IMG/VR virus record: IMGVR_UViG_3300025674_000459
Coordinates: 1-21,944 of that record
Strand: one strand, 5' to 3'
Source: a virus
Length of the DNA: 21,944 nt
The translations under genes were made by a program, and so were the position numbers. Numbering within the stretch: position 1 is the stretch's first letter; each line of letters starts with the position of its first letter. Shown here piece after piece: positions 9,445-15,078 of this stretch. The notes beneath the pieces were generated by a model. That model made no database searches. It was not told where the DNA came from and saw only the letters and a program-made list of their open reading frames with translations.

Positions 9445-9888
9445 ATGGGATTTCCTTTTGAAATAGTTACAATGTTAGCTTCCACAGTGCTTGGTGGAGT
9501 TATGAGTATATGGTCTGAAAGTCGTAAGGCTAAAGCAGAAGCTCAGAAACTTCTTATAACTCGTGGTGAGTTTGATATGAAAGCTAAGAAACAATCACTT
9601 GACCATGGATTAAAAGATAAAGGCTTTGCATGGACTAGAAGAATCATAGCACTAACATCAGTATTTGCTATTGTTCTTTTACCAAAACTTGTAGCTGTAT
9701 ATTATCCTGATGTAAGTGTTACTGTAGGATATACACAATGGAATCCCGGCTTTTTATTTTTTAAAGAAGGAAGAGAAGTATTTGATTGGGTAACTTTTCA
9801 AGGTCTTGTAATTACACAATTAGACACTAACTTAGTATCAGCAATTATTGGCATGTACTTTGGTGGTAGTTTAGCAAAAGGAAGATAA
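9445..9888 (+). CDS. Three-transmembrane protein, probable holin
   Basis: A 147-residue protein with three predicted membrane spans: residues 5-23 (VTMLASTVLGGVMSIW), 66-87 and 128-144 (VSAIIGMYFGGSL). A basic, helical cytoplasmic-looking segment lies between spans 1 and 2 (RKAKAEAQK). Size and topology fit the three-span holins seen next to phage and gene-transfer-agent lysis genes. The position after the last virion gene, with its stop overlapping the next start (TAATG), supports a late lysis role. The alternative is a membrane-anchored structural protein. Confidence 0.5.
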   Translation: MGFPFEIVTMLASTVLGGVMSIWSESRKAKAEAQKLLITRGEFDMKAKKQSLDHGLKDKGFAWTRRIIALTSVFAIVLLPKLVAVYYPDVSVTVGYTQWNPGFLFFKEGREVFDWVTFQGLVITQLDTNLVSAIIGMYFGGSLAKGR

Positions 9889-10175
9889 TGGATACTAGAG
9901 ACTTTATGACCATCTTAGAAACTGTAGGGATTCCTGCAGCTTTTGCAGTTGCTGCCGGATGGATGGTTTGGAAACTCTTTAGTGCTTTAATAGCTGATGT
10001 ACATAAAAAGTTAGATACACAACATGGTATGATAGTTGCATTAATAGATAGAGTAAGACAAATGGATAACGATATGATACGTATAGACTCTATGGTGCGT
10101 ACAGCTTTAGGTGTACAAATAGATGTTGATAGATTAGCGAGAGCAGATGGAAAGAAAGACCAAAGAAAAGATTAA
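9888..10175 (+). CDS. Small single-span membrane protein, possible holin partner
   Basis: A 95-residue protein with one membrane span at about residues 13-34 (IPAAFAVAAGWMVWKLF). A polar helical region follows, with a heptad-like MIVALIDRVRQMDNDMIRID segment, and the C-terminus is very basic (ADGKKDQRKD). Such one-span proteins with a coiled-coil tail are often found next to holins. Holin, antiholin or lysis regulator are all possible. Its start overlaps the previous stop by one base. Its last 29 bases overlap the next small gene in another frame. Confidence 0.45.
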   Translation: MDTRDFMTILETVGIPAAFAVAAGWMVWKLFSALIADVHKKLDTQHGMIVALIDRVRQMDNDMIRIDSMVRTALGVQIDVDRLARADGKKDQRKD

Positions 10176-10242
10176 GTTTGAGATACCCGTAATAACTATT
10201 TTTGTATTTCTATTTATTCTTAGTGTATTGGAGCAATTATGA
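10147..10242 (+). CDS. 31-residue membrane peptide coupled to csgF
   Basis: An ATG at 10147 opens a 31-codon frame with a basic N-terminus (MERKTKEKIK) and one hydrophobic span at residues 13-28 (IPVITIFVFLFILSVL). It ends in a TGA that overlaps the csgF ATG (ATGA at 10239). A purine-rich GCGAGAGC lies just before the start. It fills what would otherwise be a 63-base gap in a genome with almost no gaps, and it holds the csgF ribosome site. No homologue is recognised. It could be a functional small membrane protein (lysis or export accessory) or a leader whose translation drives csgF. N-in topology is inferred from the charge bias. Confidence 0.5.
   Translation: MERKTKEKIKFEIPVITIFVFLFILSVLEQL
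10230..10233 (+). promoter_or_regulatory. Ribosome binding site of csgF
   Basis: GGAG five bases before the ATG at 10239 is the clearest Shine-Dalgarno sequence in this stretch and fixes the csgF start. It lies inside the preceding 31-codon frame, so the two genes can be translationally coupled. Confidence 0.6.
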
Positions 10243-10748
10243 ACTTAAATGATTTAGAAAAAGTACATCCTATAAAACAAATTACTGTAGCTTCTATAGT
10301 ACAGGTATTAGTATTTGGATTTATGTTGTTAGCTTTCTGGGGTAACTCTAAAGTCTTTGCAGATGAAATAGTATTTAAATTTAAAAGTCCTAGCTTTAAT
10401 GGTGTTGGTACATCATCACATTACCTAACCATACAGAACCAAGAGTTTAATCGTAAGGCAGCTTTAAAAGCAGAGATAAAAGCGTTACAAGATGAAATAG
10501 AAAGAGACAAAGAAAATACAACACTCGCAAGGTTTATAAGAAACTTAGAGTCTAGAATATATGCACAGTTATCTAGACAGCTTGTAGAGAACTTGTTTGG
10601 TGAAACTCCAAGTGATAGTGGCGTATTAGAATTAGAGGGCAACAGAATAGAATATAGTGTTGTCGATGGTATAATAACTTTAAACATAACGGACAGTGAT
10701 GGGAATACAACGACTATATCTTTACCTATCGGTAGCTTTACTTTCTAG
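10239..10748 (+). CDS. csgF: CsgF-like curli assembly factor
   Basis: A 169-residue protein with a hydrophobic export signal (residues 17-34) and a plausible cleavage after Ala41 (KVFA then DEI). The predicted mature N-terminus (FKFKSPSFNG, 46-55) lines up with the start of E. coli mature CsgF (FQFRNPNFGG), the part that plugs into the CsgG barrel. The Asn17 equivalent is replaced by Thr58 in an ungapped alignment. A helical middle (70-125) leads to a C-terminal β region, IEYSVVDGIITLNITDSDG, which matches E. coli DYIVDIANRDGQLQLNVTD. In known systems CsgF is secreted through CsgG and couples the pore to curlin nucleation at the cell surface. It is followed by csgG, as in csgDEFG, but the gene upstream is not CsgE. 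The call comes from alignment with remembered E. coli sequence. Confidence 0.85.
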   Translation: MNLNDLEKVHPIKQITVASIVQVLVFGFMLLAFWGNSKVFADEIVFKFKSPSFNGVGTSSHYLTIQNQEFNRKAALKAEIKALQDEIERDKENTTLARFIRNLESRIYAQLSRQLVENLFGETPSDSGVLELEGNRIEYSVVDGIITLNITDSDGNTTTISLPIGSFTF

Positions 10749-11553
10749 TTGTGCTGTACTAAATCAGAATCAGGACTTAGTATTAACTCAAGATATAAAG
10801 CCTAGTTCAGTATTAGATTTACAGTCAGAAGAATTAAAGAATTTACCACCGGCTACAGTGATGCCGACTATAGCTATATACCCTAACAGTTTTAAAGACT
10901 TAACAGGTCAGCGTAGAAGTAATAGTTCGTTTGCTTTGTTTAGTACAGCTATTACACAAGCTCCTGAAGCTTTTCTTATAAGAGCTTTTAAACATACAGC
11001 AAATGGAAAGTTTTTTAGAGTTGTAGAAAGAGTAGGCTTGGATGACCTAACAAAAGAAAGACAACTTATTAGAAGTACTCGTAAAGAGTTTAAGGAAGAT
11101 AACAAAATGAAACCTCTGCTATTTGCAGGGTTACTAGTTCAGGGAGGAGTAATTAGTTATGAAGCTAATCTCAGGTCTGGAGGTGCTGGTGCTAGATACC
11201 TAGGGATAGGTAACAGTAAACAGTACAGAGAAGATACGGTTACTATATCATTACGATTAGTATCTGTGTCAACAGGAGAAGTACTGATGGAAACTTTAGT
11301 TTCTAAAAGTATTATATCCACAAGTGTTTCTCAGGATGTATTTCGTTTTATTGAAACTGGCACAGAGCTAGTAGAAATAGAAGGTGGTGTAGCTGAGAAC
11401 GAATCTGTTTCTATAGCTTTGCAAAAGGCAATAGAGACAGGTGTATTAAATATTATAAATATAGGAATAGAGAGAGGCTATTGGAAATATGAAAATATTA
11501 AAATTGATAAGCCTGTTTGTGATGCTGAGTGCATTGCCGACATACGGGGCTGA
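10699..11553 (+). CDS. csgG: CsgG-like outer-membrane curli secretion channel (lipoprotein)
   Basis: A 284-residue protein from the ATG at 10699 (a GTG lies three bases earlier). A lipoprotein signal has the lipobox LLSSC with Cys18; the next residue is Ala, not Asp, which predicts outer-membrane sorting. Family landmarks follow in order: KDLTGQ, FSTA (81-84), VERVGLDDLTKERQLIR, SGGAGARYLGIG (160-171), VSVSTGEVL, VFRFIETG and AIETGVLNIINIGIERGYW. Each has a close counterpart in E. coli CsgG, which is of similar length. CsgG forms a nonameric diffusion channel for unfolded curlins. The three constriction residues of E. coli (Tyr51, Asn55, Phe56) correspond, without gaps, to Ser76, Leu80 and Phe81, so only Phe is kept. 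The 5' end overlaps csgF by 50 bases in another frame. Confidence 0.93.
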   Translation: MGIQRLYLYLSVALLSSCAVLNQNQDLVLTQDIKPSSVLDLQSEELKNLPPATVMPTIAIYPNSFKDLTGQRRSNSSFALFSTAITQAPEAFLIRAFKHTANGKFFRVVERVGLDDLTKERQLIRSTRKEFKEDNKMKPLLFAGLLVQGGVISYEANLRSGGAGARYLGIGNSKQYREDTVTISLRLVSVSTGEVLMETLVSKSIISTSVSQDVFRFIETGTELVEIEGGVAENESVSIALQKAIETGVLNIINIGIERGYWKYENIKIDKPVCDAECIADIRG

Positions 11554-12205
11554 TAACGAAATATATGTTGACCAATCAGGTGCTACAGCTAACATAGATT
11601 TAGAGCAGTTAGGTTCAGGCAATATTATAGGTGGATTACAATCTTCAGCAGGAAGTGTGACTCCATTAGATTTAGACGGTCTTACTATGACTTTAGATAT
11701 AAATCAAATAGGAGATACTAATAAATTCTTAGGTGATATTTATGGTGATTCTATAACAGGATTTTTTGAGTTTGATGGTGATAGTAATACATTTACTATA
11801 CAAGGAGACCCAACAAATACTTTTGGTATTGATAACTCTAATTATAATGTTGACGTTACTGGAAACTCTAACACATTTACCTTAGACCATGGTACAACTG
11901 CACTAGCTGCAACACTAGATTTAGATTGGATTATTCAAGGTGATGATAACACTTTTGATTTCGATATAAATTATGATGGTGCTACTAACTATGTAGATGT
12001 TGATGGAGATGATAACACTGTAACCTTTACAGGTTCAGGATATGCCGGAGGGTATTTTTATCTTGACCAAACAGGAAACAGTAGAACATTCAACATACAA
12101 CAACTGAGTACTCAAGACAATGACTGGCTTAAAATTATATCTAACGGTAATAATGGTACTGTTTGTGTCATTCAAAATGACCAAGGTACAGGCACAAGCT
12201 GCTAA
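11489..12205 (+). CDS. Secreted curlin-like repeat protein, candidate CsgG substrate
   Basis: A 238-residue protein with a clear signal peptide (KILKLISLFVMLSALPTYG, cleavage near 20-21) and a body of about eight β-rich repeats. Units share an alternating hydrophobic strand, then a Gly-[DN]-x-Asn turn and a second strand: DQSGATANI, NQIGDTNKF, FDGDSNTFTI, VTGNSNTFTL, IQGDDNTF, VDGDDNTVTF, DQTGNSRTFNI, SNGNNGTVCVIQ. This follows the curlin pattern (x-Q-x-G-x-x-N) but is far richer in Asp, and several Gln positions are lost. The only cysteines are C226 and C238 at the end. Overlapping the end of csgG by 65 bases, it is the natural candidate cargo of the channel. Whether it acts as CsgA (fibre), CsgB (nucleator) or a non-amyloid β-solenoid is open. 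Confidence 0.7.
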   Translation: MKILKLISLFVMLSALPTYGADNEIYVDQSGATANIDLEQLGSGNIIGGLQSSAGSVTPLDLDGLTMTLDINQIGDTNKFLGDIYGDSITGFFEFDGDSNTFTIQGDPTNTFGIDNSNYNVDVTGNSNTFTLDHGTTALAATLDLDWIIQGDDNTFDFDINYDGATNYVDVDGDDNTVTFTGSGYAGGYFYLDQTGNSRTFNIQQLSTQDNDWLKIISNGNNGTVCVIQNDQGTGTSC

Positions 12206-13229
12206 TATTGGAAACATAACAGAACTTAATGGAGCTGGTAGAGTTGTCAGAGATGATACTTACCAAGCTTCATTAAATTTTGACATAAATAGTTTTGATA
12301 ATGTTCAAACTTCTAACGGAAGATTGGGCATTACTTTTTTAGATGACAGTCAAGTTAGACTTACTGAACATTCTGAATTAATAATAGATGAGTTTATATA
12401 CGACCCCGACCCGTCTAAATCTAAGATGGCACTTCAGTTTGCTAGTGGTACTGCAAGGTTTATTACTGGTAAGTTAGCTACAATAGATAAAGAAAATATA
12501 CTAATACAAACTCCTAGTGCTACGATAGCTATTCGTGGTACAGATTTTACAGTTACTGTAGATGAGTTAGGGAGAAGTTTAGTTATATTATTACCAGACG
12601 ATGACGGTCTTCCAAGTGGAGAGATTGTTGTCGCAACAGCTATGGGACAGGTAACACTTAACAAACCTTACCAAGCTACTACAGTTTCAATGTACGAGAC
12701 TGCACCAACCAAACCCGTTATCCTTGACTTAACTCTTGAGTTAATTGATAACATGTTAATAGTAAATGAACCACAGAAAGTAGAACAAGAAGATGAAGGA
12801 CAAGATGGAGATGGCGTTTCTAATATTCTTGATGTTGACTTCCTTGAGTTCGATGATTTAGAAGTAGACTATCTTGCAGAAGATGAGTTAGAGTTTACAG
12901 AGTTAGATATAAATTATCTTGATGTAAACTTTCTAGAAGATTTACTAAACATCATAGAAGAGGTAAATGAGTTAGACAATACTGAATCACTTTTAAGGAC
13001 TGACATAGATTTAAAAGGAACTCAAGTTGGCTTTGACTCTAACACTCAAATCAACACATTCTTAACTGACAACCTTATAACCTTTTACAAGTCTCTAGAA
13101 GATACTGTAAGACTAGACTTAGATAGGTCTAATGCTTATACAGTTATCATGATTCAAAACGGTAAGAGTACACAGGTCATTGTCAATGGTGGAGGAGACT
13201 CTACTATAAAAATAACGCAAGGAGATTAA
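12120..13229 (+). CDS. Secreted FecR-domain protein with acidic pentad repeat and curlin-like tail
   Basis: A 369-residue protein. The signal peptide (hydrophobic 5-18, likely cleavage after VQAQA near 27) puts it in the periplasm or outside. Residues about 33-145 form a FecR domain, with a GRVVRDDT opening, LDDSQVRLTEHSELIIDEF, an FASGTARFITGKL segment and a closing TPSATIAIRGTDF, the most diagnostic part. A DEGQDGDGVSN stretch (225-235) resembles a Ca2+-binding Asp-rich loop. Residues 239-273 are seven acidic five-residue units with Leu always at position four. The tail (337-369) has MIQNG and IKITQGD, similar to a curlin repeat. The start is embedded 86 bases inside the curlin-like gene and lacks an obvious ribosome site; Met12 (12153) would lose the basic n-region. 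FecR-domain proteins next to CHASE2 cyclases are, from memory, a recurring bacterial pair, which suggests it is the sensor partner of the next gene. Confidence 0.8.
   Translation: MTGLKLYLTVIMVLFVSFKMTKVQAQAANIGNITELNGAGRVVRDDTYQASLNFDINSFDNVQTSNGRLGITFLDDSQVRLTEHSELIIDEFIYDPDPSKSKMALQFASGTARFITGKLATIDKENILIQTPSATIAIRGTDFTVTVDELGRSLVILLPDDDGLPSGEIVVATAMGQVTLNKPYQATTVSMYETAPTKPVILDLTLELIDNMLIVNEPQKVEQEDEGQDGDGVSNILDVDFLEFDDLEVDYLAEDELEFTELDINYLDVNFLEDLLNIIEEVNELDNTESLLRTDIDLKGTQVGFDSNTQINTFLTDNLITFYKSLEDTVRLDLDRSNAYTVIMIQNGKSTQVIVNGGGDSTIKITQGD
13219..13224 (+). promoter_or_regulatory. Ribosome binding site of the cyclase gene
   Basis: AAGGAG six bases before the ATG at 13231, the strongest Shine-Dalgarno match in the cassette. 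It overlaps the last codons of the FecR-domain gene and supports efficient translation of the cyclase. Confidence 0.7.
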
Positions 13230-13230
13230 C

Positions 13231-14961
13231 ATGAAGTGGTCTACAATTCTTTTAGGACTATTAACTTTACCTTTGCTTTTTAATGCTGTTCCACTTGAAG
13301 TACTAAGACTAAAAACTTTTGACGCTTTAGTAGCTCAACAAGAACCAACCGGACATTTTAAAATACTTAATATTACTGAAGAAGACCTAGATAAAATGGG
13401 AGGATATCCTTTACCTCGTCAAGACTTAGCAAGTATTCATAAAAAAATTATGGATGCTGGTGCTTATGGAGTTGGATGGGTTATGTTATTTCCACATGCA
13501 GATAGACTAGGTGGTGATGATGAGTTTGCTTTAGAGCTTTCTAAGTCTGCAAGTGTTATAGCTATGCCTGAAATATCTAATGGAGTTTATCCTGCTACAC
13601 ATGGTACAGTTATAAAAGGACCAATAGTATCCTTACCAAAAGCTCAAGGATTTTTAGAAAACATAGAACCTTTAAAACAGTCAGCTAGTCAAGGTGCTAT
13701 CTCTGCACCAGTTGATGTAGATAATTTAGTAAGGCGTATACCTTTACTACAACAAACAGATAATGGGTGGGTTGCTTCGTTTGGAACAGAAGTTTTAAAA
13801 ATACTAGGAGGTGGTCGTACTTATCAGATTGTCACAAATCTGAATGGAATAGAACAGATTAGAGTTAGAGGTATTCCACCCGTTTCAACAGATAGTTTAG
13901 GTCGTAAGTGGATTAGTTGGGTAGACACTCCACAAACTACACTAGCTGAGATGGATGTTGAATCTTCTTTTGTGTTTGTAGGATTTACAGCCAAGGGAAT
14001 ATCACCACAAGTTGCAACACCTGTAGGTTTATTAGAGCCTCACAAAATTCAAGCTGCGTTATCTGAAAGCATGTTAATGGATACGCCACAGATACCTGAC
14101 TATAGATTGTTTGTAGAACTATTATTATTATGTGTCTCAGGTTTACTGACAGCCTTTCTAATAGCACGATTAGGTATCACATGGGGTATTGTATCAGTTG
14201 GTGGTTTGATGTCAGGAGTAGGCTACTTTGGATATAGTGTCATACAAAATAACATACTCATAGATGTGACTTGGAGTATGACAAGTATGACACTTATTGC
14301 CACGTTACAATTCTACCTAAACTTTAGAAAGCAATACAAGCTTAGACAACAAATTAAAAAACAATTTGAACATTACCTTGACCCAAGACAAGTCAAACAA
14401 CTCCAAGATAATCCGGAGCTTCTGAAGTTAGGCGGAGATAGACGAAGATGTACGTTTTTATTTACAGATGTTCGTGGCTTCACAAGCTTGTCAGAAAAAC
14501 TAGAGCCTGAACAAGTAACAGAGATTATGAATAAGGCACTAACTATTCAAGCTGATGCAGTTAAAGAATGTGGAGGGATGGTAGATAAATATATTGGTGA
14601 TGCGATGATGGCTATCTTTAATGCACCTATAGACTTAAATGACCATGAGCAAAAAGCTGTTGAATCAGCTGTGAAAATACACCAACGTATGGCTGAAGCC
14701 GACTTAGGGATAGAGATAGGTATAGGGATAAATACAGGAGAGGCAGTTGTAGGTAATATGGGAAGCGATTCACGATTTGATTACTCGGCAATAGGTGATG
14801 CAGTAAACCTAGCCGCAAGATTGGAAAGTTCTACTAAAGAAGTTGGTAAAGATATAGTCATAGGTCATGAAACAATTAAGAGTTACACAGGAAACTATGC
14901 AACTCTTGAGCCAATTTATGTAAAAGGAAAAGAAAAACCTATAAAAATTTACACAATTTAG
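13231..14961 (+). CDS. CHASE2-domain membrane adenylate cyclase (class III)
   Basis: A 576-residue sensor enzyme. An N-terminal membrane anchor (3-20) is followed by a CHASE2 region (about 28-285, with FDALV at its start), which should face the periplasm. Three membrane spans follow (about 291-312, 315-337, 342-363), the usual CHASE2 architecture, then a linker and a class III cyclase domain (about 405-576). All catalytic residues are visible: metal Asp413 in FTDVRGFTSL and Asp457 in DKYIGDAMMA, adenine-selecting Lys453 and Asp523 (SAIGDAVNLAARLE), and transition-state Asn526 and Arg530. Lys/Asp rather than Glu/Cys predicts ATP to cAMP rather than GTP to cGMP. It is the last gene of the plus-strand cassette, one base after the FecR-domain gene. 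The family assignment is secure; its signal and its role in infection are inferred. Confidence 0.93.
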   Translation: MKWSTILLGLLTLPLLFNAVPLEVLRLKTFDALVAQQEPTGHFKILNITEEDLDKMGGYPLPRQDLASIHKKIMDAGAYGVGWVMLFPHADRLGGDDEFALELSKSASVIAMPEISNGVYPATHGTVIKGPIVSLPKAQGFLENIEPLKQSASQGAISAPVDVDNLVRRIPLLQQTDNGWVASFGTEVLKILGGGRTYQIVTNLNGIEQIRVRGIPPVSTDSLGRKWISWVDTPQTTLAEMDVESSFVFVGFTAKGISPQVATPVGLLEPHKIQAALSESMLMDTPQIPDYRLFVELLLLCVSGLLTAFLIARLGITWGIVSVGGLMSGVGYFGYSVIQNNILIDVTWSMTSMTLIATLQFYLNFRKQYKLRQQIKKQFEHYLDPRQVKQLQDNPELLKLGGDRRRCTFLFTDVRGFTSLSEKLEPEQVTEIMNKALTIQADAVKECGGMVDKYIGDAMMAIFNAPIDLNDHEQKAVESAVKIHQRMAEADLGIEIGIGINTGEAVVGNMGSDSRFDYSAIGDAVNLAARLESSTKEVGKDIVIGHETIKSYTGNYATLEPIYVKGKEKPIKIYTI

Positions 14962-14979
14962 GTAAATCCTCTGAGACAA

Positions 14980-15057
14980 ACAGAGAAGCTCTGTATTAAA
15001 AAGTTGTTACATCTGAAGCAATCGTATTAGGTATTATCAGATATGTTAATACAGAGC
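14980..15057 (+). terminator. Nested inverted repeats in the convergent junction, possible two-way terminator
   Basis: Between the converging cyclase and 76-residue genes, GCTCTGTATTAA (14988-14999) is the exact reverse complement of TTAATACAGAGC (15046-15057). Inside the loop, ATCTGA (15011-15016) pairs with TCAGAT (15037-15042). The left arm can instead form a local hairpin, ACAGAG-AAG-CTCTGT (14980-14994). There is no clean U-run on the plus strand. On the minus strand the local hairpin is followed by TTGTCTC. The position suits transcription termination from both sides, but an RNA element or protein site is equally possible. Confidence 0.4.
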
Positions 15058-15078
15058 ATACAGTGAGTTCAATTTTCT

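Follow-up and report, generated by a model that had tools for sequence, protein, structure and literature searches.

A curli (type VIII secretion) cassette that includes genes for a FecR protein and an adenylate cyclase was described in 2022 in HTVC023P-type podophages and in pelagimyophages (PMC9599517). Expression of the cassette in metatranscriptomes and its co-transfer were reported there, together with a histidine kinase encoded upstream of CsgF and said to be always present in the podophages; CHASE2 is not mentioned in the main text. Part of the curli cassette had been described earlier (PMC7029224). The GenBank records of the SAR11 myophage HTVC008M and the Methylophilales myophage Melnitz carry the cassette with its cyclase.

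In bacteria, FecR is paired with most CHASE2 cyclases of Campylobacterota (PMC9239204). In Sinorhizobium meliloti, the CHASE2 cyclases CyaD1, CyaD2 and CyaK respond to a signal via the outer-membrane protein NsrA, and the cAMP receptor Clr is present (PMC13001267). The phage cassette, including the cyclase, is already known from PMC9599517; the present analysis adds a second pelagipodophage lineage, data on selection, the pairing with FecR and the scarcity of cNMP-binding domains in the likely host family.

Organization of the Curli Cassette

The window, i.e., the whole stretch of 21,944 nt analysed here (IMG/VR record IMGVR_UViG_3300025674_000459), contains the genes in the order CsgF–CsgG–curlin–FecR–cyclase on one strand, with the cyclase being the last (Table 1). 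These five genes are homologous to those of the PMC9599517 module and follow the identical order. The window cassette differs from that module in that no second curlin gene is located between FecR and the cyclase, and in that the gene before CsgF encodes a 95-aa membrane protein and not a histidine kinase. A Pfam search found no kinase domain in this small protein. Its homologues precede CsgF in HTVC008M and Melnitz, and the upstream "histidine kinase" of PMC9599517 may be this same short membrane protein. The protein is also encoded at positions 2845–3123 of L002. In contigs L090 and L091 of the Rickettsiales MAG MED657, a related cyclase has two copies of the gene for this small protein downstream and none upstream.

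Table 1. Position and annotation of the curli cassette genes in the window.
Feature	Position	Strand	Details and evidence
Small membrane protein	9888–10175	+	95 aa; conserved directly upstream of CsgF in podophage and myophage cassettes
CsgF, curli chaperone/nucleation factor	10239–10748	+	Pfam CsgF, 1.6e-17
CsgG, curli outer-membrane secretion channel	10696–11553	+	GTG start, overlaps CsgF; Pfam CsgG, 1.1e-48
Putative curli subunit, a secreted curlin-like protein of all-beta repeats	11489–12205	+	Homologous to the curlin genes of HTVC008M and Melnitz
FecR-domain protein, signal-like segment at the N-terminus; likely cyclase partner	12120–13229	+	Pfam FecR, 4.3e-11
CHASE2-domain class III adenylate cyclase	13231–14961	+	ATG start, 576 aa; ORF, Pfam, residues, dN/dS

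The curlin-like protein is a putative curli subunit, assigned through homology and fold type, with a weak Pfam match: the Curlin_rpt profile gave a value of 8.6e-6 for the Melnitz homologue and 0.25 for the window copy. Modeling led to a confident all-beta repeat structure (pLDDT 84), for which a Foldseek search against the PDB found no significant match. The FecR model was of low confidence (pLDDT 49) and matched weakly the structure of a putative anti-sigma factor. Two of the structural analyses were run without rows from phage records. The C-terminus of FecR is beta-rich and contains a short curlin-like motif that recurs in 64 of 66 sequences. A role of this region as a curlin-like docking tail was considered and was not accepted in view of weak curlin profile scores (0.002 at best and 0.45 for the window protein), and it is kept as a lead.

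CsgF, CsgG, curlin and FecR all adjoin the cyclase in 45 of the 47 loci with enough flanking sequence, and both exceptions (L038 and L043) meet the end of the stored sequence. The FecR gene adjoins the cyclase wherever the stored sequence reaches, and the cassette is conserved across three phage lineages. The genes of NrdB, NrdA, an endonuclease and PolA are convergent to the cyclase. The intergenic region between the two convergent gene sets (14962–15078) contains an imperfect hairpin (z −2.2), a possible bidirectional terminator. A promoter scan performed no better than on shuffled sequence.

Domains, Active Site and Selection of the Cyclase

The first-pass annotation had described an intact CHASE2 adenylate cyclase, and this description was borne out. 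Both domains exceeded their Pfam cut-offs, namely CHASE2 at residues 12–305 (4.1e-25; 89.2 bits vs. a cut-off of 26.3) and Guanylate_cyc at residues 406–574 (1.1e-19; 71.2 bits vs. 21.9), and the active site is complete, with all six named residues present: the metal-binding D413 and D457, the adenine-specifying K453 and D523, and the transition-state residues N526 and R530. The nearest solved structures for the catalytic domain are those of bacterial adenylate cyclases. No substitution occurs at D413, K453, D457 or R530 in any of 81 near-full-length phage relatives; N526 is kept in 80 and D523 in 75, the other six having Ser at the latter position. In class IIIb cyclases the adenine-specifying Asp is likewise replaced and ATP is still the substrate, so the Ser was not read as a loss of function. 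The six cyclases with Ser (L041, L046, L052, L064, L072 and L074) belong to more than one phage lineage according to gene context, since NrdB adjoins the cyclase in L041 and not in the others.

The median pairwise dN/dS of the related phage copies was about 0.14 for the whole gene, and both halves were found to be under purifying selection (0.11 for the catalytic domain and 0.15 for the CHASE2 sensor). Among the matches listed in IMG/VR, full-length relatives were up to 95% identical to the window copy; together with the dN/dS value, this excludes a chance ORF. All these sequence characteristics allow us to assume that the protein is very probably an active adenylate cyclase.

Three membrane spans had also been proposed. 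A hydropathy scan revealed one N-terminal span (residues 3–25) and, C-terminal to the sensor, a single hydrophobic block (288–327). No additional span could be distinguished around residues 337–360, so that the first two segments were supported and the third was not. CHASE2 is flanked on both sides by hydrophobic segments, as in CHASE2-domain receptor cyclases, and, judging from this domain, it is reasonable to suppose that the signal is extracytoplasmic.

Phage Lineage and Cyclase Phylogeny

The PolA and structural genes of the window are closest to those of the SAR11 phage HTVC103P, with which the window has PolA and three other genes in common; with HTVC023P, PolA is the sole shared gene (27%). 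Two related contigs have 22 (L004) and 19 (L031) ORFs in common with HTVC103P and two and one, respectively, with HTVC023P, and another two (L045 and L066) are of the HTVC023P type. On gene content, the window phage is a member of an HTVC103P-related pelagipodophage lineage, not of the HTVC023P type to which the podophages of PMC9599517 belong. The presence of the cassette in this second pelagipodophage lineage, outside the intended survey of the 2022 paper, is new here.

Phylogenetic analysis grouped the 37 bacterial cyclases together (SH-aLRT 99), with all phage copies outside. The window cyclase is in a clade of 33 rows (support 100) together with copies from both podophage lineages, including those of the HTVC023P type. 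The cyclases of HTVC008M and Melnitz have the same CHASE2 and Guanylate_cyc domains and lie in the same cassette; however, they are only 32–34% identical to the window copy and form part of another group. The tree was a quick one; it was left unrooted, and several of its branches are long. The bacterial cyclases were taken from a genome search; the contig scan gave no bacterial outgroup because most of its matches were contigs from MAGs in which the cassette is of the phage type.

The separate position of the phage cyclases agrees with the phage context, which is conserved in many contigs, and a recent insertion of the gene from a host is thereby ruled out. No integrase was found in the contigs of seven relatives, in HTVC103P or in HTVC023P; this fits the lytic life assumed for the phage, although it falls short of proof. 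The first-pass annotation had regarded the cyclase as unusual cargo. This view is not upheld, because the cyclase belongs to a published and widespread curli/FecR/cyclase cassette (PMC9599517) that is carried by HTVC008M and Melnitz, and the IMG/VR scan yielded at least 598 related sequences.

Association of the Cyclase with FecR and Curli Genes

A FecR-domain ORF was found within 1.5 kb of the CHASE2 cyclase in 5 of 20 bacterial loci (one of the five overlaps a cyclase ORF that is probably over-extended), and in 8 of the 20 when the distance is widened to about 2 kb; curli genes were not found in the vicinity. As in Campylobacterota, the CHASE2 cyclase of the phage cassette adjoins a FecR-domain envelope protein; the Campylobacterota cluster adds a phosphodiesterase and a TPR protein (PMC9239204), the place of which is taken by curli genes in the phage. 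Since FecR and a CHASE2 cyclase are a known bacterial pair, FecR need not indicate iron regulation here, and the two proteins can be read as forming a signalling unit by themselves.

The reading that we favour, with a probability of roughly 0.55, is that the cyclase and FecR constitute the signalling arm of the phage-borne curli cassette, the cyclase being active and anchored in the membrane. From gene order alone, we infer a contact between FecR and CHASE2. FecR would report curli secretion or the state of the cell envelope to the periplasmic CHASE2 domain, the CHASE2 signal would activate the cytoplasmic cyclase dimer, and the activated cyclase would convert ATP to cAMP during infection. Signalling in this direction is known from S. 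meliloti, with a different partner, as NsrA is a beta-barrel protein and not a FecR protein. With a signalling pair of this kind, the curli module of PMC9599517 would have a mechanism that can be tested and is independent of iron regulation.

In five loci (L033, L034, L037, L038 and L043), the cyclase is located on the strand opposite to FecR and extends the NrdA/NrdB unit; three of the five (L034, L037 and L043) have a small heat-shock-protein-like ORF between the cyclase and FecR. The position on the ribonucleotide-reductase strand indicates that co-expression with FecR is not required, and the retention of the cyclase outside the curli operon speaks for a useful function exerted in trans. 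The same move into a replication-gene unit, along with the occurrence of bacterial CHASE2 cyclases without neighbouring curli genes, would suit an active cyclase that is independent of curli, responds to some other signal at the envelope (osmotic state, damage or superinfection) and is only carried along by the cassette. We consider this rather unlikely, as the linkage to FecR and curli is near-universal in three phage lineages, the inverted loci included, and the co-transfer reported in PMC9599517 also speaks against it.

Host and Possible Targets of cAMP

The host of the window phage is likely to be SAR11, judging from its gene similarities. The genomes of the SAR11 family were examined for cNMP-binding domains of the PF00027 type and for class III cyclases. 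A cNMP-binding domain was found in 11 of 148 family genomes, this set being the family of one contaminated Candidatus Pelagibacter MAG (G001) and many of its genomes probably being MAGs, compared with 74 of 96 across the class. Most of the 11 matches are in ORFs of about 870–1000 aa, one is in a short protein of 112 aa, and two proteins have a CRP-type HTH over the cut-off, both with an FNR-like cysteine-rich N-terminus. A class III cyclase over the cut-off was present in only 2 of the 148 genomes; both are on contigs where CsgG and the remaining cassette genes are also present, and both cyclases therefore look like phage sequences in MAG bins. In 20 phage records, no cNMP-binding protein was found.

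The proposal that the phage tunes host cAMP is thus doubtful: with cNMP-binding proteins and class III cyclases almost absent from the likely host family, there is perhaps no host cAMP circuit to tune. S. meliloti differs in having Clr, no receptor having been found for the phage system. The likely SAR11 host seems to lack any recognised cAMP receptor, and the favoured signalling-arm reading therefore does not account for the target of cAMP. A tentative extension, which we regard as possible and not probable, is that the phage introduces cAMP as a signal into hosts whose lineage does not itself use it; cAMP would then be sensed by a receptor not yet recognised, encoded by the phage or by the host, or would be put to a non-canonical use, and in this way control curli display or late infection. 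The hosts of pelagiphages are among the most abundant bacteria of the ocean and many marine phages carry the curli/cyclase cassette; should the cyclase be functional in SAR11 cells, which have no recognised receptor, either a new receptor awaits discovery or cAMP is used outside transcription.

The difficulty with the target would disappear if the true host were not SAR11 and were instead a bacterium with a CRP-type regulator, so that cAMP feeds a canonical host receptor. We infer the host of the window phage, a Methylophilales phage has the same cassette, and cNMP-binding domains are frequent across the class, which leaves some room for such a host; but the affinity of PolA and the structural genes to HTVC103P, and the fact that the isolate HTVC008M, which infects HTCC1062, carries the same cassette, make it quite improbable. 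A catalytically dead or vestigial cyclase, of which the sensor or membrane part alone matters, would suit a likely host without a recognised receptor for the product, but it is very hard to reconcile with the complete or near-complete conservation of the catalytic residues across 81 sequences and with a dN/dS that is lowest in the catalytic domain.

Curli/cyclase phage contigs were found binned in MAGs of the Pelagibacter family (L085 and L163 (G042:C11)), and surveys of the genes present in SAR11 could be led astray by such contigs.
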